From the NCBI RefSeq assembly GCF_001425785.1, contig NZ_LMDI01000003.1:45176-101546 (forward strand): a DNA stretch of 56,371 nucleotides. The letters run 5' to 3'. Below, in pieces: positions 35,977 through 40,538 of the stretch. The notes under the pieces were generated by a model that was not told where the DNA came from, made no database searches, and saw nothing but the letters and a program-made list of their open reading frames with translations. The position numbers and the translations under genes were made by a program. Numbering within the stretch: the stretch's first letter is position 1; every line of letters begins with the position of its first letter. The stretch comes from Rhizobacter sp. Root1221 (lineage in GTDB: Bacteria; Pseudomonadota; Gammaproteobacteria; Burkholderiales; Burkholderiaceae_C).

Positions 35977-38346
35977 GTGAGCTTCTCCTTTCAGTCCCTC
36001 TGGCGCGGGCAGCCCGGCGCCGTGTTTCGCAGTGCGTCGATGGTGCTCGTGGCCCTGTTTGTCGCGGTGTTCTTCACCGCGGCCATCGGTGCCACCCTGC
36101 TGTACCAGCGCCAGCCCGACCTTACTGCGCTGACCGACTACCGTCCGAAGCAGCCGCTGCGCATCTTCACCGACGAAGGCGTGGAGATCGGCCAGTTCGG
36201 TTCCGAACGCCGGTACCTGATGCCCATCGGGCAGATCCCGAAGCAGTTGCAGGATGCCGTGCTGGCGGTGGAAGACAAGCGCTTTCGCGACCACTTCGGC
36301 GTCGATGCCCGCGGTGTCGTGCGCGCGGTGCTCACGAACCTGTGGCGCTCGCGGCGCAGCCAGGGCGGCTCCACCATCACGCAGCAGGTGGCCCGCACGT
36401 TCTACCTCTCGTCGCGCAAGACCTACGTGCGCAAGATCAACGAGATGCTGCTCGCGGTGAAGATCGAACGGCAACTCGGCAAGGACCAGGTGCTCGAGCT
36501 GTACATGAACCAGATCTTCCTCGGGCACCGTGCGTACGGGTTCGAGGCAGCGTCGCAAGCCTACTTCGGCAAGACGCTGTCGGACCTCTCGCTGGCCGAA
36601 TGCGCGATGCTCGCCGGGCTGCCGCAGAACCCCGTCTACGCGAACCCCATCACCAACTTCGAGCGGGCGCGCCAGCGCCAGTGGCAGGTGCTCGCCCGCA
36701 TGCGCGACGCCGGCATGATCACCGCCGAGGCCGAACAGGCCGCGCGCATCGAGGCGCTGCACATCCACAACGACCGCGACACCACGCTGCACGCCGAACA
36801 CGTGGCCGAGATGGCGCGGCAGATCGTGTTCGCCCGCTACGGCGACAGCGCCTACTCGCTCGGCCTGAAGGTCACCACCACGCTGCACGCCGAGGACCAG
36901 CAGGCCGCCTACCGCGCGTTGCGCAAGGGTGTGCTCGACTTCGATCGCCGCCAGCCCTACCGCGGCCCGGAGGACCAGGAAGACATGCCCGACGGGATGG
37001 GGCCGCACGACGCCGGCGTGGCCCAGTTGCTGGCCGACTACCGCGACGACGACGACCTGCGCGTGGCCATCGTCAGCGAGGCCAGTCCGCAGCAGGTGGT
37101 GGCCACGCTGGCCACCGGCGAGGTCGTGCAGGTGCGTGGTGACGGGTTGAAGCAGGCGCAGCCGGCCCTGTCGTCACGCGCCAAGGGGGCCGAATCCATC
37201 CGGCGCGGGTCGGTGATCCGGCTCGCGCAGGACCTGGGCTCGTCCGGCCAATGGGCCATTCGCCAATGGCCCGGCGTGGAAGGCGCCCTCGTGGCCACCG
37301 AACCGGCCACCGGCCGCGTGCGGGCACTCGTGGGCGGGTTCGATTTCGCGCGCAACCAGTTCAACCACGCGAGCCACGCGTGGCGCCAGCCCGGATCCAG
37401 CATCAAGCCGTTCCTCTACTCGGCCGCACTCGAACACGGGGTCATGCCGGCCACGCTGATCAACGACGCGCCGCTCGTGCTGCCGGGCGACGTCGAGGCG
37501 TCCGGCTGGGACCCGAAGAACTCCGACGGCGGCTTCGACGGTCCCATCACCCTGCGCCAGGCCCTCGCCCGCTCGAAGAACCTCGTGACGATCCGGCTCG
37601 TCAAGATGCTGGGGCCCGACGTGGCCCGCGAGTGGCTGGGCCATTTCGGTTTCGATCCCGCGCTGCAACCCGACAACCTGACGCTCGCACTCGGTTCGGG
37701 CCAGACGAGCCCGCTGCAACTCGCCTCCGCGTACGGGGTGCTGGCCAACGGGGGCTATCGCGTGGAACCCCGGCTCATCCAGCGCATCACCGACGCCAAG
37801 GGCAACGTGCTGTTCGAGGCCCCGCCCACCGAACTCGGCGACGACGCGCGGGCCATTTCGCCCCGCAATGCCTTCGTCACCAACAGCCTGCTCAACGAGG
37901 TCACGCGCAGCGGCACCGCCGCGAAGGCGCAGGCGCTGCTCAAGCGGCCGGACCTGTACGGCAAGACCGGCACCACCAACGATGCCGTCGACGCGTGGTT
38001 CGCGGGCTTCCAGCCGAGCCTCGTGGCCGTGGTGTGGATGGGCCACGACAACCCGCGCAGCCTCGGCGCGCGAGAATCGGGCGGCGGCCTGTCGCTGCCC
38101 ATCTGGATCGACTTCATGGGACACGCGTTGCGGGGCGTGCCGGTGGACCAGCCTGCCGCGCCCGACGACGTGCTGAAGCTCGGCGGCGACTGGGTCTACA
38201 TGGACTGGGCGTTCGGCGGCGCGAAGACCCACGTGGGCTTCGACGATGCCACCGAGGCACTCGGGGCACCCGGCTCGGCCGCCTCCGCCCCGGTGCCCAA
38301 GGCCCCCGAGCCGCCGCTGCCCGGCGTGGTCATGGGGCCGAACTGA
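35977..38346 (+). CDS. mrcA: Penicillin-binding protein 1A (bifunctional)
   Basis: Class A PBP of 789 aa that polymerises and cross-links peptidoglycan. A membrane anchor at about 20-42 is followed by the GT51 glycosyltransferase with catalytic Glu99 (AVEDKRFRDHFGVD) and GGSTITQQVARTFYLS. The transpeptidase has SxxK Ser474-Lys477, SKN 533-535 and KTGT 663-666. The start is GTG 35977; the next Met would remove the cytoplasmic N-terminus. Like other Burkholderiales PBP1A, it has an OB-like insert between the two domains (about 330-430). Confidence 0.95.
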   Translation: MSFSFQSLWRGQPGAVFRSASMVLVALFVAVFFTAAIGATLLYQRQPDLTALTDYRPKQPLRIFTDEGVEIGQFGSERRYLMPIGQIPKQLQDAVLAVEDKRFRDHFGVDARGVVRAVLTNLWRSRRSQGGSTITQQVARTFYLSSRKTYVRKINEMLLAVKIERQLGKDQVLELYMNQIFLGHRAYGFEAASQAYFGKTLSDLSLAECAMLAGLPQNPVYANPITNFERARQRQWQVLARMRDAGMITAEAEQAARIEALHIHNDRDTTLHAEHVAEMARQIVFARYGDSAYSLGLKVTTTLHAEDQQAAYRALRKGVLDFDRRQPYRGPEDQEDMPDGMGPHDAGVAQLLADYRDDDDLRVAIVSEASPQQVVATLATGEVVQVRGDGLKQAQPALSSRAKGAESIRRGSVIRLAQDLGSSGQWAIRQWPGVEGALVATEPATGRVRALVGGFDFARNQFNHASHAWRQPGSSIKPFLYSAALEHGVMPATLINDAPLVLPGDVEASGWDPKNSDGGFDGPITLRQALARSKNLVTIRLVKMLGPDVAREWLGHFGFDPALQPDNLTLALGSGQTSPLQLASAYGVLANGGYRVEPRLIQRITDAKGNVLFEAPPTELGDDARAISPRNAFVTNSLLNEVTRSGTAAKAQALLKRPDLYGKTGTTNDAVDAWFAGFQPSLVAVVWMGHDNPRSLGARESGGGLSLPIWIDFMGHALRGVPVDQPAAPDDVLKLGGDWVYMDWAFGGAKTHVGFDDATEALGAPGSAASAPVPKAPEPPLPGVVMGPN

Positions 38347-38358
38347 ACGCGGTGTTGT

Positions 38359-38439
38359 ATGCTCGGTTCCGTGAACGCCTCCCTCACCCCGCTTCCCGTC
38401 CGGGCCTCCACCCGACGATCCGCTCGACGTCGACGTTGA
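38359..38439 (+). CDS. Arg-rich leader peptide of argD (attenuator)
   Basis: 26-codon frame (ATG 38359, or GTG 38371 in the same frame; stop TGA 38437-38439) whose last dozen residues read RASTRRSARRRR. Seven of 26 codons are Arg, four of them consecutive at the end, and four of the seven are CGA, a codon usually rare in GC-rich betaproteobacteria. It lies upstream of argD and its Arg codons fall inside hairpin 1:2. No Shine-Dalgarno is clear, so initiation could be leaderless. Recognised from architecture, not from a known family. Confidence 0.75.
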   Translation: MLGSVNASLTPLPVRASTRRSARRRR

Positions 38440-38508
38440 GCGGTTTCGCCCTGCCCGAACGCAAGTAGCCCGCGTTCATCCTCCAGGCCACGAGACCCCT
38501 CGTGGCCT
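38421..38508 (+). promoter_or_regulatory. Transcription attenuator of argD (1:2, 2:3 and 3:4 pairings)
   Basis: Hairpin 1:2 (38421-38442) pairs CGCTCGACG with CGACGTTGAGCG over the run of Arg codons (9 bp, one G-U, TCGA loop). The alternative 2:3 pairs GAGCGGTTTCG (38438-38448) with CGAGACCCCTC (38491-38501): 10 of 11 positions, including one G-U. This is incompatible with the terminator 3:4 (38485-38508). A ribosome stalled at Arg codons would free strand 2, form 2:3 and allow readthrough into argD. Confidence 0.75.
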
Positions 38509-38518
38509 TTGTTGTTTC
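38485..38518 (+). terminator. Intrinsic terminator of the argD attenuator
   Basis: AGGCCACGAG, loop ACCC, CTCGTGGCCT: a perfect 10-bp stem followed by TTTGTTGTTT, a genuine T-rich tail in a GC-rich genome. It lies 46 nt after the leader-peptide stop and 90 nt before the argD start, so it blocks argD unless disrupted. It may also terminate transcription coming from pbp1A. Confidence 0.88.
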
Positions 38519-38607
38519 TGGGGGTGCCGCCGCGGTGGGGTCCCCGGCCCGAGGTGGTTCCGTTCCCGTCTGGTTGTTCCGTCCTCCCTCCACCAGGAAC
38601 TTCACCG

Positions 38608-39792
38608 ATGACATCCTCCCCTCGCCTTCCCGTCGACGCCCTGATGACCGTCGCCAACCGCCCCGACACCGTGTTCACACGCGGCGACGGCAGCTGGCTC
38701 TGGGACGAACACGGCCGCCGCCACCTCGACCTCGTGCAAGGCTGGGCGGTCAACACGCTCGGCCATGCCGCGCCCGAGATCGCGGCCGCACTGGCCGCGC
38801 AGGCCGGGCGGGTGTTGCACGTGGGCCCCGGCTTCCACAACGACCGCGCCATCGCGCTCGCCGGACGGCTCACGGCGCTCAGCGGCCTCGACCGCTGTTT
38901 TTTCACGAACAGCGGTGCCGAGGCGAACGAAGGGGCCATCAAGCTCGCCCGCAAGTTCGGCCAGGTGCACCGGGGCGGCGCGTACGAGATCATCACGTTC
39001 GAGCACAGCTTCCACGGCCGCACGCTGGCCACGATGAGCGCGAGCGGCAAGCCCGGCTTCGACACCCTGTTTGCACCCCAGGTGCCGGGGTTCCCGAAGG
39101 CGCGGCTCAATAACCTCGCCAGCGTCGAGGCACTCGTCAACGCCAACACGGTGGCCGTGATGCTGGAGCCCATCCAGGGCGAGGCCGGGGTGGTCGAGGC
39201 CACGCCCGGGTTCCTGCAGGCCCTGCGCACGCTGTGCGACTCACGTGGGCTGCTGCTGGTCCTCGACGAGGTGCAGACCGGCGTGGGCCGCACCGGCACC
39301 TGGTGGGGGCACGATGCCGCGGGCGTCGTCCCCGACATCATGACGCTCGGCAAGGGCCTCGGAGGCGGTGTCCCGATCGGGGCCCTGCTGGCCCGCGAGG
39401 CCGTGTGCTGCTTCGCCCCGGGCGACCAGGGCGGCACCTACAACGGCAACGCGCTCGTGTGTGCCGCGGCCCTGGCCGTGGTGAACGCCGTGGACGCGCC
39501 CAGTTTCCTGCCGAACGTGCAGGCCCGCAGCCACCAGCTGCGCACGGGCCTCGACCGCATCGGACACCGGGTAGGCAGCCCGCCGGTGCGCGGCCGCGGC
39601 CTGCTGCTGGCACTGGACCTGCCTGGCGCCGGGCAAGCGCTGCAGGTGGCCGAGACGCTGCGCCTGCGCGCGGAGACGGGCGTGCTGGTCAATGCCGTGC
39701 GGCCCCAGCGCCTGCGCCTGATTCCGGCGCTGAACATCACCGAGGCGGAGGTTGCCCTGGCGCTGGCGGCGCTGGAGGAGGCGATCCCCTAA
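38608..39792 (+). CDS. argD: Acetylornithine aminotransferase
   Basis: Class III PLP aminotransferase of 394 aa in arginine synthesis (N-acetylornithine / 2-oxoglutarate). Motifs are FFTNSGAEANEGAIKLARKF, HSFHGRTLATMSASG, MLEPIQGEAGV, LLVLDEVQTGVGRTG and the PLP lysine K249 in TLGKGLGGGVPIGA. ATG 38608 with AGGA 9 nt upstream begins before the conserved domain. ArgD and SuccDAP transaminase activities are hard to tell apart by sequence, but the Arg-codon leader in front supports arginine. Confidence 0.92.
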   Translation: MTSSPRLPVDALMTVANRPDTVFTRGDGSWLWDEHGRRHLDLVQGWAVNTLGHAAPEIAAALAAQAGRVLHVGPGFHNDRAIALAGRLTALSGLDRCFFTNSGAEANEGAIKLARKFGQVHRGGAYEIITFEHSFHGRTLATMSASGKPGFDTLFAPQVPGFPKARLNNLASVEALVNANTVAVMLEPIQGEAGVVEATPGFLQALRTLCDSRGLLLVLDEVQTGVGRTGTWWGHDAAGVVPDIMTLGKGLGGGVPIGALLAREAVCCFAPGDQGGTYNGNALVCAAALAVVNAVDAPSFLPNVQARSHQLRTGLDRIGHRVGSPPVRGRGLLLALDLPGAGQALQVAETLRLRAETGVLVNAVRPQRLRLIPALNITEAEVALALAALEEAIP

Positions 39793-40424
39793 CGCGGAGG
39801 GCGTTCCACGAGGGACGCCATCTCGCGGGCCTGCGCGTCGGCTTCGGCCCGCAGGCCCGTGGCCACGCCTGCCCGGTCGGCTTCGCCGCGGTTCTGGCTC
39901 ACCTTCCATTTGCCGACGAGCCGCGTGAGGGGAATCTCGATGCCCACGATCACCCGGGCGAGTTGTGCCGTGTACTCGGCCGGGGCATCGGCCACGCGCC
40001 ACGGGTGCTCGCGGCCCGCCTCGAAGTGGTCGGTCAACTGGCTCACGATGCGCAACACGTCGGCCGGGTCTTCCAGCGCGCGGGCCACGCCGTGCGCCTG
40101 CACCGTGGCGTAGTTCCAGGTGGGCACCACCTTGCCATGTTCGCGCTTGCCGGCGTACCACGATGGCGACACGTAGGCCTGCGGCCCCTGGAAGACCACC
40201 AGCGACGCCTCGCCACGGGCACACGTCTTCCACACCGGGTTGGCGCGGGCGACGTGGCCCACGAGCGTGCCGAACTCACCGCGCGACGGATCGAGCAGGA
40301 ACGGGACGGGGTTGGCCACGGGTTCACCGTTGTCCACGACGATCCACGTGCCGAGCGGGTGGGCGTGCACCAGCTCGTGCTGGGCGGCTGTGTCGGCGAT
40401 GCCGAAAGGAGGAAGGACGTACAT
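39789..40424 (-). CDS. PaiB-family FMN-binding protein
   Basis: 211-aa PaiB-type protein (called negative transcriptional regulator in B. subtilis) with a split-barrel flavin fold. It starts MYVLPPFGIADTAAQHELVHAHPLGTWIVV and continues with NPVPFLLD, GHVARANPVWK, ASLVVFQGPQAYVSPSWYAGK, VPTWNYATVQAHG and RLVGKWKVSQNR, all family hallmarks. An AAGGAGGA lies about 5 nt before ATG 40424. It converges on argD, with stops that overlap by 2-3 nt. Its role in this organism is unknown; some relatives bind haem or flavin. Confidence 0.9.
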   Translation of the reverse strand: MYVLPPFGIADTAAQHELVHAHPLGTWIVVDNGEPVANPVPFLLDPSRGEFGTLVGHVARANPVWKTCARGEASLVVFQGPQAYVSPSWYAGKREHGKVVPTWNYATVQAHGVARALEDPADVLRIVSQLTDHFEAGREHPWRVADAPAEYTAQLARVIVGIEIPLTRLVGKWKVSQNRGEADRAGVATGLRAEADAQAREMASLVERPPR

Positions 40425-40538
40425 CAGGTATTCCAAGGCGGTGGGGCTCGGCCCGACGCGTTGCCAAGCGAACGGCCGCGGCGAACGATGCTGCGAGTAT
40501 GACGTGGACGTCTCGACCTCGACCGGCACCGACCTGCC

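Follow-up and report, generated by a model that had tools for sequence, protein, structure and literature searches.

A probable arginine-sensing leader-peptide attenuator ahead of argD in Rhizobacter and other Burkholderiales

Introduction

Amino-acid leader-peptide attenuators are known for his, trp, leu, thr, phe and ilv, and in some of these classical systems rare codons serve the sensing. Their common layout is a short frame containing a run of end-product codons, three mutually exclusive RNA pairings (1:2, 2:3 and 3:4), a terminator, and the gene behind it. To our knowledge, arginine is missing among the amino acids whose synthesis genes are controlled by leader-peptide attenuation in proteobacteria. 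The element described here stands in front of argD in Rhizobacter sp. Root1221. It shares each part of the classical layout, but its codon run is arginine, its target is argD and its frame is apparently leaderless.

Several described systems resemble the element in part. The attenuator RNA of Sinorhizobium meliloti trpL (rnTrpL/peTrpL) starts at the leader ATG and is leaderless, according to the accessible text of PMC7298713 and PMC10117765, as is proposed below for argD; trpL differs in reading tryptophan, in controlling trpE(G) and in belonging to another order. The upstream ORF orf34 of Salmonella speF carries consecutive Arg codons and responds to arginine, but its target is an ornithine decarboxylase, which it controls with Rho, RNase G and RNA structure at the start of speF; as far as the available part of that source goes (PMC6386406), it is unlike the argD element in being no intrinsic-terminator attenuator and in acting on a gene outside arginine synthesis. 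The Rfam family RF02884 (BcKCsr7) lies at the same place as the element, and is the same element, in Burkholderia, Paraburkholderia and Caballeronia loci, but it is filed as an sRNA, and the accessible portions of the sources mention neither a function nor an arginine leader for BcKCsr7. According to a review, that RNA (RIT34 = nc5U30 = Bc_KC_sr7) maps to Burkholderia cenocepacia chromosome 1 at 2,967,641-2,967,787 and is expressed in biofilms; expression of Bc_KC_sr1 to sr7 has been confirmed, and BcKCsr7 changed in some conditions (PMC10987360, available part). In the accessible text of two further papers on B. cenocepacia, short 5'UTR transcripts are described as attenuation or processing products (PMC5688073) and leaderless transcripts are reported (PMC4603805).

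An initial annotation of the locus had put forward an arginine attenuator on argD as new. Our literature search found no argD attenuator, although it was made mostly without subscription papers, so that absence from print is unproven; the claim needs amending in that the element is widespread and its Burkholderia form is already in Rfam as an sRNA.

Methods

The window is the whole stretch of DNA that was analysed, 56,371 nucleotides of Rhizobacter sp. Root1221 contig NZ_LMDI01000003.1. Two overlapping sets of argD loci were compared with it. The 82 argD-clade loci comprise all rows of a family search (17 of 150 genomes, E<=1e-100) and all rows of an order search (63 of 399 genomes, 65 rows, E<=1e-115), plus one locus of the same genus, L010. 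The named set is the best 80 loci of a longer list and overlaps in part with the 82. Upstream stretches varied in length, 341 nt being the shortest among the 39 loci with a leader described below. Random 420-nt segments of the window served as controls.

Three rules were applied to call leaders. The strict rule combines a terminator, a frame of 10-60 codons with at least three Arg in eight codons, and a sigma-70-like site 6-7 nt before the start; the relaxed rule is the strict rule without the promoter. The terminator-blind rule takes TTGACA at 5/6, a start codon 34-38 nt on, and at least three Arg in eight codons. For segment 2, the best duplex was computed with the terminator 5' arm plus loop as one partner and, as the other, everything from the first Arg cluster up to the terminator. 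Swapped arms were taken from other loci differing at three or more core positions. The argD tree holds 78 rows; L016, L029, L072 and L103, one of them a leader row, were left out for their short translations.

Results

The element in the window

The features of the window element are collected in Table 1. The upstream gene, which encodes a penicillin-binding protein, ends 24 nt 5' of the leader GTG on the same strand and is outside the attenuator. The argD start at 38608 is 99 nt past the terminator stem. The best family for its product is NF002985 (554.1 bits vs a cut-off of 568); TIGR00707 gives 396.5 vs a cut-off of 410.05, and NF002325 is just over, at 372.8 vs 372.

The initial annotation had described a 26-codon leader frame. 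Such a frame does run from ATG 38359 to the TGA at 38437-38439 (sequence read directly, 37500-40500); it encodes MLGSVNASLTPLPVRASTRRSARRRR, ends TRRSARRRR, and has its Arg run where it had been placed. What changes is the start, which is most likely GTG 38371, for a frame of 22 codons. The GTG aligns with the GTG of L010 and with the ATG of Caldimonas mangrovi. We rejected ATG 38359 as the start, given that it overlaps the -10-like box TATGCT and that the equivalent ATG of L010 meets a stop after four codons.

Table 1. Features of the argD leader region in the window, with the Bradyrhizobium loci that carry an argD leader
Feature	Coordinates	Strand	Remarks
Class A penicillin-binding protein (PBP1A family), upstream gene	35977..38346	+	TIGR02074 over cut-off
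-10-like box TATGCT	38358..38363	+	7 nt ahead of GTG start; -35 position GGGCCG poor, 2/6
Leader peptide frame	38371..38439	+	GTG start, 22 codons, MNASLTPLPVRASTRRSARRRR, TGA stop; probably leaderless
Arg codon cluster CGA CGA TCC GCT CGA CGT CGA CGT	38413..38436	+	6 Arg in 8 codons
1:2 (protector) hairpin	38420..38443	+	10 bp, spans last Arg codons and stop codon
Segment 2 (antiterminator)	38438..38448	+	pairs with 38491-38501 in segment 3, 10/11 positions
3:4 intrinsic terminator	38485..38517	+	stem 38485-38508, then T-rich tail
argD, acetylornithine transaminase	38608..39792	+	second argD of the genome; presumed target of the regulation
Bradyrhizobium argD leader loci			L116, L169, L172, L179, L180, L182-L184, L186-L189, L191

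The three pairings were all recovered. The 1:2 hairpin, which had been given as 9 bp at 38421-38442, proved to be one pair longer at 38420-38443; its computed fold has a UCGA loop, two G-U pairs and an energy of -17.0 kcal/mol. The alternative pairing of 38438-38448 with 38491-38501 was likewise found at 10 of 11 positions. All ten of these pairs are present in the minimum-energy fold computed for 38438-38501, in which arm 4 is still unmade. Once arm 4 is added, the terminator beats the 2:3 pairing in the fold. The terminator itself is as first described, a perfect 10-bp hairpin at 38485-38508 (-18.7 kcal/mol) followed by TTGTTGTTT, and it is the sole terminator-like site detected in 38200-38700, where 0.2 were expected. 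The 191-nt region as a whole folds with a z of -3.49 against shuffles.

Near relatives

The leader region was matched in one of 10 other genomes of the genus searched, namely at L010, with 80% identity over the matched stretch. This copy keeps the GTG-AAC-GC start and the CGA CGA.CC GCT CGA CGT CGA CGT TGA end, its 1:2 and terminator hairpins are identical to those of the window, its identical -10 box lies 6 nt ahead of the GTG, and it stands behind the same penicillin-binding protein gene. Caldimonas mangrovi is the nearest named relative among the matches listed (argD 67% identical in the best segment). Its promoter and leader read TTGACG-18-TAGTCT-7-ATG, its leader ends NRRTRRRR, and its terminator is AGGCCACGAG..CTCGTGGCCT. 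The leader frame and its start are conserved in both. The loss of Arg codons or stems in relatives had been named as a reason to abandon the attenuator; the Arg codons and the terminator are kept in these two nearest relatives.

Distribution across Burkholderiales

A terminator within 420 nt upstream was found in 42 of the 82 argD-clade loci, the other 40 being without one by our rule. The order leader, alternative pairing, terminator, argD was present in 39 of the 82, spread over 12 family codes; these 39 leaders have a terminator by construction, having been looked for ahead of terminators. The proportion of 39 leaders in 42 terminator-bearing loci needs weighing, because the relaxed rule also called 11 of the only 48 control segments that bear a terminator. 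The strict rule called 31 of the 82 loci, 39 of the best 80 named loci and 0 of 2,958 controls, and the relaxed rule 39, 48 and 11 of 2,945, respectively. The window copy was called by the relaxed rule; the strict rule missed it and the L010 copy, because the -35 is poor (2/6 in the window).

Strict calls among the best 80 named loci include Caldimonas, Burkholderia, Paraburkholderia, Caballeronia, Pandoraea, Cupriavidus, Ralstonia, Herbaspirillum, Collimonas, Undibacterium and Propionivibrio, among others, as well as MAGs labelled Herminiimonas and Hylemonella; four Polynucleobacter and two Bordetella loci, among others, were not called by this rule in the same set. On the argD tree, the leaders require 11 changes vs 26.3 with shuffled labels. 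The comparison across Burkholderiales thus bears out the initial proposal, in that an Arg-run leader, a terminator and a matching segment 2 recur in the 12 family codes on different sequences. The leaders of different groups are very unlike one another, with little in common beyond the Arg codons.

Three loci are mentioned for themselves. L155, a MAG labelled Marinobacterium (which we take to be a gammaproteobacterial name), was called by the strict rule, and its label may be wrong. The leader of L018, MIHLNLFSRRCMNARRQSGEPCCVCGKSMEDKRFR, has a Cys cluster after the Arg codons. In L078 argD is followed on its strand by an argC-like frame (G536:C3:99514), so control by the attenuator may extend beyond argD in that genome.

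Pairing and codon statistics

Across the 39 loci, the 2:3 duplex had a mean z of -1.56 against dinucleotide shuffles, with p<0.05 in 16; singly, the window is not significant (p 0.076) and L010 gives p 0.017. The pairing of segment 2 with its own arm beat the swapped-arm mean in 31 of 39 loci, and the observed mean was reached by none of 20,000 permutations, figures that are inflated because the loci are related and the pairing tests are not independent. It follows from this own-arm preference that changes in segment 2 go along with changes in segments 3 and 4. Segment 2 starts at a median of 28 nt past the first Arg of the run. The 1:2 hairpin, strong in the window, has a mean z of only -0.57 across the 39 loci and is significant in 8. 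The covarying stems foreseen in the initial annotation were therefore found in part: the joint change of 2:3 with 3:4 is clear, and that of 1:2 is weak.

The codon usage of the leaders is skewed. Of 234 leader Arg codons 38% are CGA, as against 3% of 868 in the argD bodies; in the window the figures are 4 of 7 leader Arg codons and 1 of 87 in ponA and argD combined (Fisher p 5.6e-5). Besides sensing, base pairing could account for this excess. Arg makes up 21.7% of the 791 residues of the 29 leaders that have a TTGA/TTTA -35 box, more than any other amino acid; read in their two other frames, the leaders contain 13-14% Arg. Against dinucleotide shuffles of each leader, the Arg run was significant in only 8 of 39.

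Promoter and leader start

When the 420 nt upstream were searched with the leader ignored, the best sigma-70-like site lay 6-7 nt 5' of the leader start in 29 of the 39 loci, a count that is not wholly independent because the starts were picked with the Arg count and the promoter score. Stronger evidence for a leaderless start comes from the fixed spacing of perfect or near-perfect TTGAC boxes. This spacing places the predicted first base at, or adjoining, the leader start codon, which suggests that the mRNA is probably leaderless. In the window the poor -35 makes the promoter strength uncertain, and read-through from the upstream gene could contribute. A promoter between terminator and argD driving the gene had been named as a finding that would count against attenuation; no promoter-like site scoring above 5 of 12 was found in 38503-38607.

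Relation to RF02884

The gathering score of RF02884 (59 bits) was reached in three of 11 named loci scanned (L124, L125 and L139, which are one Burkholderia, one Paraburkholderia and one Caballeronia locus), and L086 is also over it. One Pandoraea and one Cupriavidus locus fell below the gathering score, and the six other loci of the 11 gave no match at E<=0.1. In 37000-40000 of the window, RF02884 had no match at the element at E<=1, and no Rfam leader family matched there. The published coordinates of Bc_KC_sr7, which were compared in place of the J2315 sequence, span 147 nt; in L086 the predicted stretch between leader ATG and end of the stem measures 148 nt. In that locus the Rfam match begins 14 nt ahead of the leader ATG (778 vs 792) and is by itself no support for a leaderless start. 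The lack of a short transcript had been listed among the possible objections to an attenuator; in Burkholderia, a short RNA has been recorded for the homologous element (PMC10987360, available part).

The short RNA might primarily be a trans-acting sRNA, the leader frame and terminator serving that RNA with no arginine control of argD. The sRNA filing of the Burkholderia form by Rfam would fit this, as would the reviewed expression of BcKCsr7 and its change in some conditions (PMC10987360, in the part accessible). Yet the RF02884 match reaches the gathering score in three of the 11 loci, falls below it in two and is absent from six, and the Arg codons, the 2:3 complementarity and the argD linkage persist all the same; such persistence is the pattern of a cis attenuator, and we regard a purely trans-acting RNA as very unlikely. 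An additional role in trans has a precedent in the trp attenuator RNA (PMC7298713, accessible text).

Linkage of leader and terminator

The link between leader and terminator was retested with the terminator-blind rule because the original 39 leaders had been sought ahead of terminators. This rule called 31 of the 82 loci, 51 of the best 80 named loci and 35 of 2,953 controls. Over the 162 loci (best 80 named included), a terminator stands behind 76 of 82 leaders called in this way vs 16 of 80 loci with no such call. In the upstream stretches examined, the penicillin-binding protein gene was found ahead of argD in 2 of the same 162 loci, the window and L010 only.

Two further explanations were considered. 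A translated leader could sense something other than Arg-tRNA, for instance ornithine through a stalled nascent peptide, or could act through Rho, as Salmonella speF, with its Arg-codon leader ORF, Rho and ornithine response, would lead one to consider (PMC6386406, available part); but leader peptides that are alike in little beyond their Arg codons are unlike an arrest peptide, and the strong association of terminators with the terminator-blind leaders also speaks against it, so that we give the other-signal explanation very little weight. The last explanation, that the hairpin is merely the terminator of the penicillin-binding protein gene and the frame a chance Arg-rich one in GC-rich DNA, can point to the short distance from that gene on the same strand, the poor -35, the commonness of Arg codons in these stretches and in the other two frames, and the relaxed calls among terminator-bearing controls, but we reject it as highly improbable in view of a leader-terminator order that recurs at loci where that gene was not found upstream, the 76/82 vs 16/80 linkage, the empty strict controls and a segment 2 that changes with segment 3 across loci.

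Bradyrhizobium

An Arg leader of 28-30 codons (e.g. MINARTHQRTEMLRRRSRDDDGLRHVRRRR) precedes argD in 13 of 13 Bradyrhizobium loci (Table 1), and in all 13 it starts 36-38 nt past the start of TTGACA. A terminator was found by rule in nine. These loci were read separately, the strict rule having missed all 13 (four without a terminator, nine with an unaccepted start). The arrangement therefore reaches Alphaproteobacteria. An Rfam scan of six of these loci gave weak Thr_leader matches below the gathering score in L172, L180 and L182, sitting just upstream of argD.

Other arg genes and ArgR

Strict leader calls ahead of argC, argG, argF and carA in 10 leader-bearing genomes numbered 0 of 54 loci, the stretches being set from the profile match rather than from a mapped gene start and some rows being paralogues below the family cut-off. 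The relaxed rule gave four matches, three at argC and one at carA; the three at argC end in what is presumably a ribosomal protein S9 tail. Seven argC matches begin at profile position 53-61, so their 420 nt are partly coding. With relaxed matches only, a leader ahead of these other arg genes was rejected. The other argD-like gene of the window's genome (L002, G000:C75), with argF next downstream, was called by the relaxed rule and missed by the strict one. Ahead of it, at about 1350-1420 of that locus, lie the sequence TAGAAT and a strong GC hairpin followed by a T tract; this upstream element could be a simple terminator or an attenuator of a different type.

Among 120 genomes sampled from the order, none had a match to the arginine repressor ArgR (PF01316) over the cut-off, and one match fell below; of 14 control genomes, 8 had a match over the cut-off. 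In the window's genome neither PF01316 nor PF02863 gave a match at E<=0.001. ArgR has been reported absent from the other proteobacterial classes covered by a published comparison (PMC5343134, accessible part).

Discussion

We consider it highly likely, on the strength of the sequence comparisons, that the element is a transcription attenuator of argD, mediated by the ribosome and sensing charged arginine tRNA; the relatives, with the leader-terminator order in 12 family codes, support this reading of the initial annotation. Arginine very probably regulates argD by this route, the leader presumably being translated. With enough Arg-tRNA, the ribosome would pass the CGA and CGT codons as far as the UGA at 38437 and cover segment 2, the 3:4 hairpin would form, and transcription would end near 38517. 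With little Arg-tRNA, the ribosome would stall at about 38413-38427, disrupting 1:2 and leaving segment 2 free; 2:3 would then form before arm 4 is made, and RNA polymerase would read into argD. If the leader were not translated, the 1:2 hairpin would hold segment 2 and termination would be the default. The gene would thus probably be switched on only at arginine shortage.

The attenuator-type element is widespread and its probable mechanism ordinary; the amino acid and the target are new as far as our literature search reaches. In many Burkholderiales and in the Bradyrhizobium examined, an Arg-rich frame, mostly with a terminator, probably lets the ribosome gauge arginine before argD is transcribed. 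In lineages without ArgR, such an attenuator would give argD its arginine response. On balance, we favour a broader proposal, with rather less confidence: that a leaderless arginine attenuator is an old and general control of argD in the ArgR-less Burkholderiales, that it travelled with argD into Bradyrhizobium (or is shared), and that RF02884 represents the RNA left by its termination, which may also act in trans.

If confirmed, the attenuator would explain how argD is adjusted to arginine in an order with no detectable ArgR. It would also give a function to the orphan Rfam sRNA family RF02884, and studies of attenuation would gain a wide natural collection of leader peptides that are probably leaderless.
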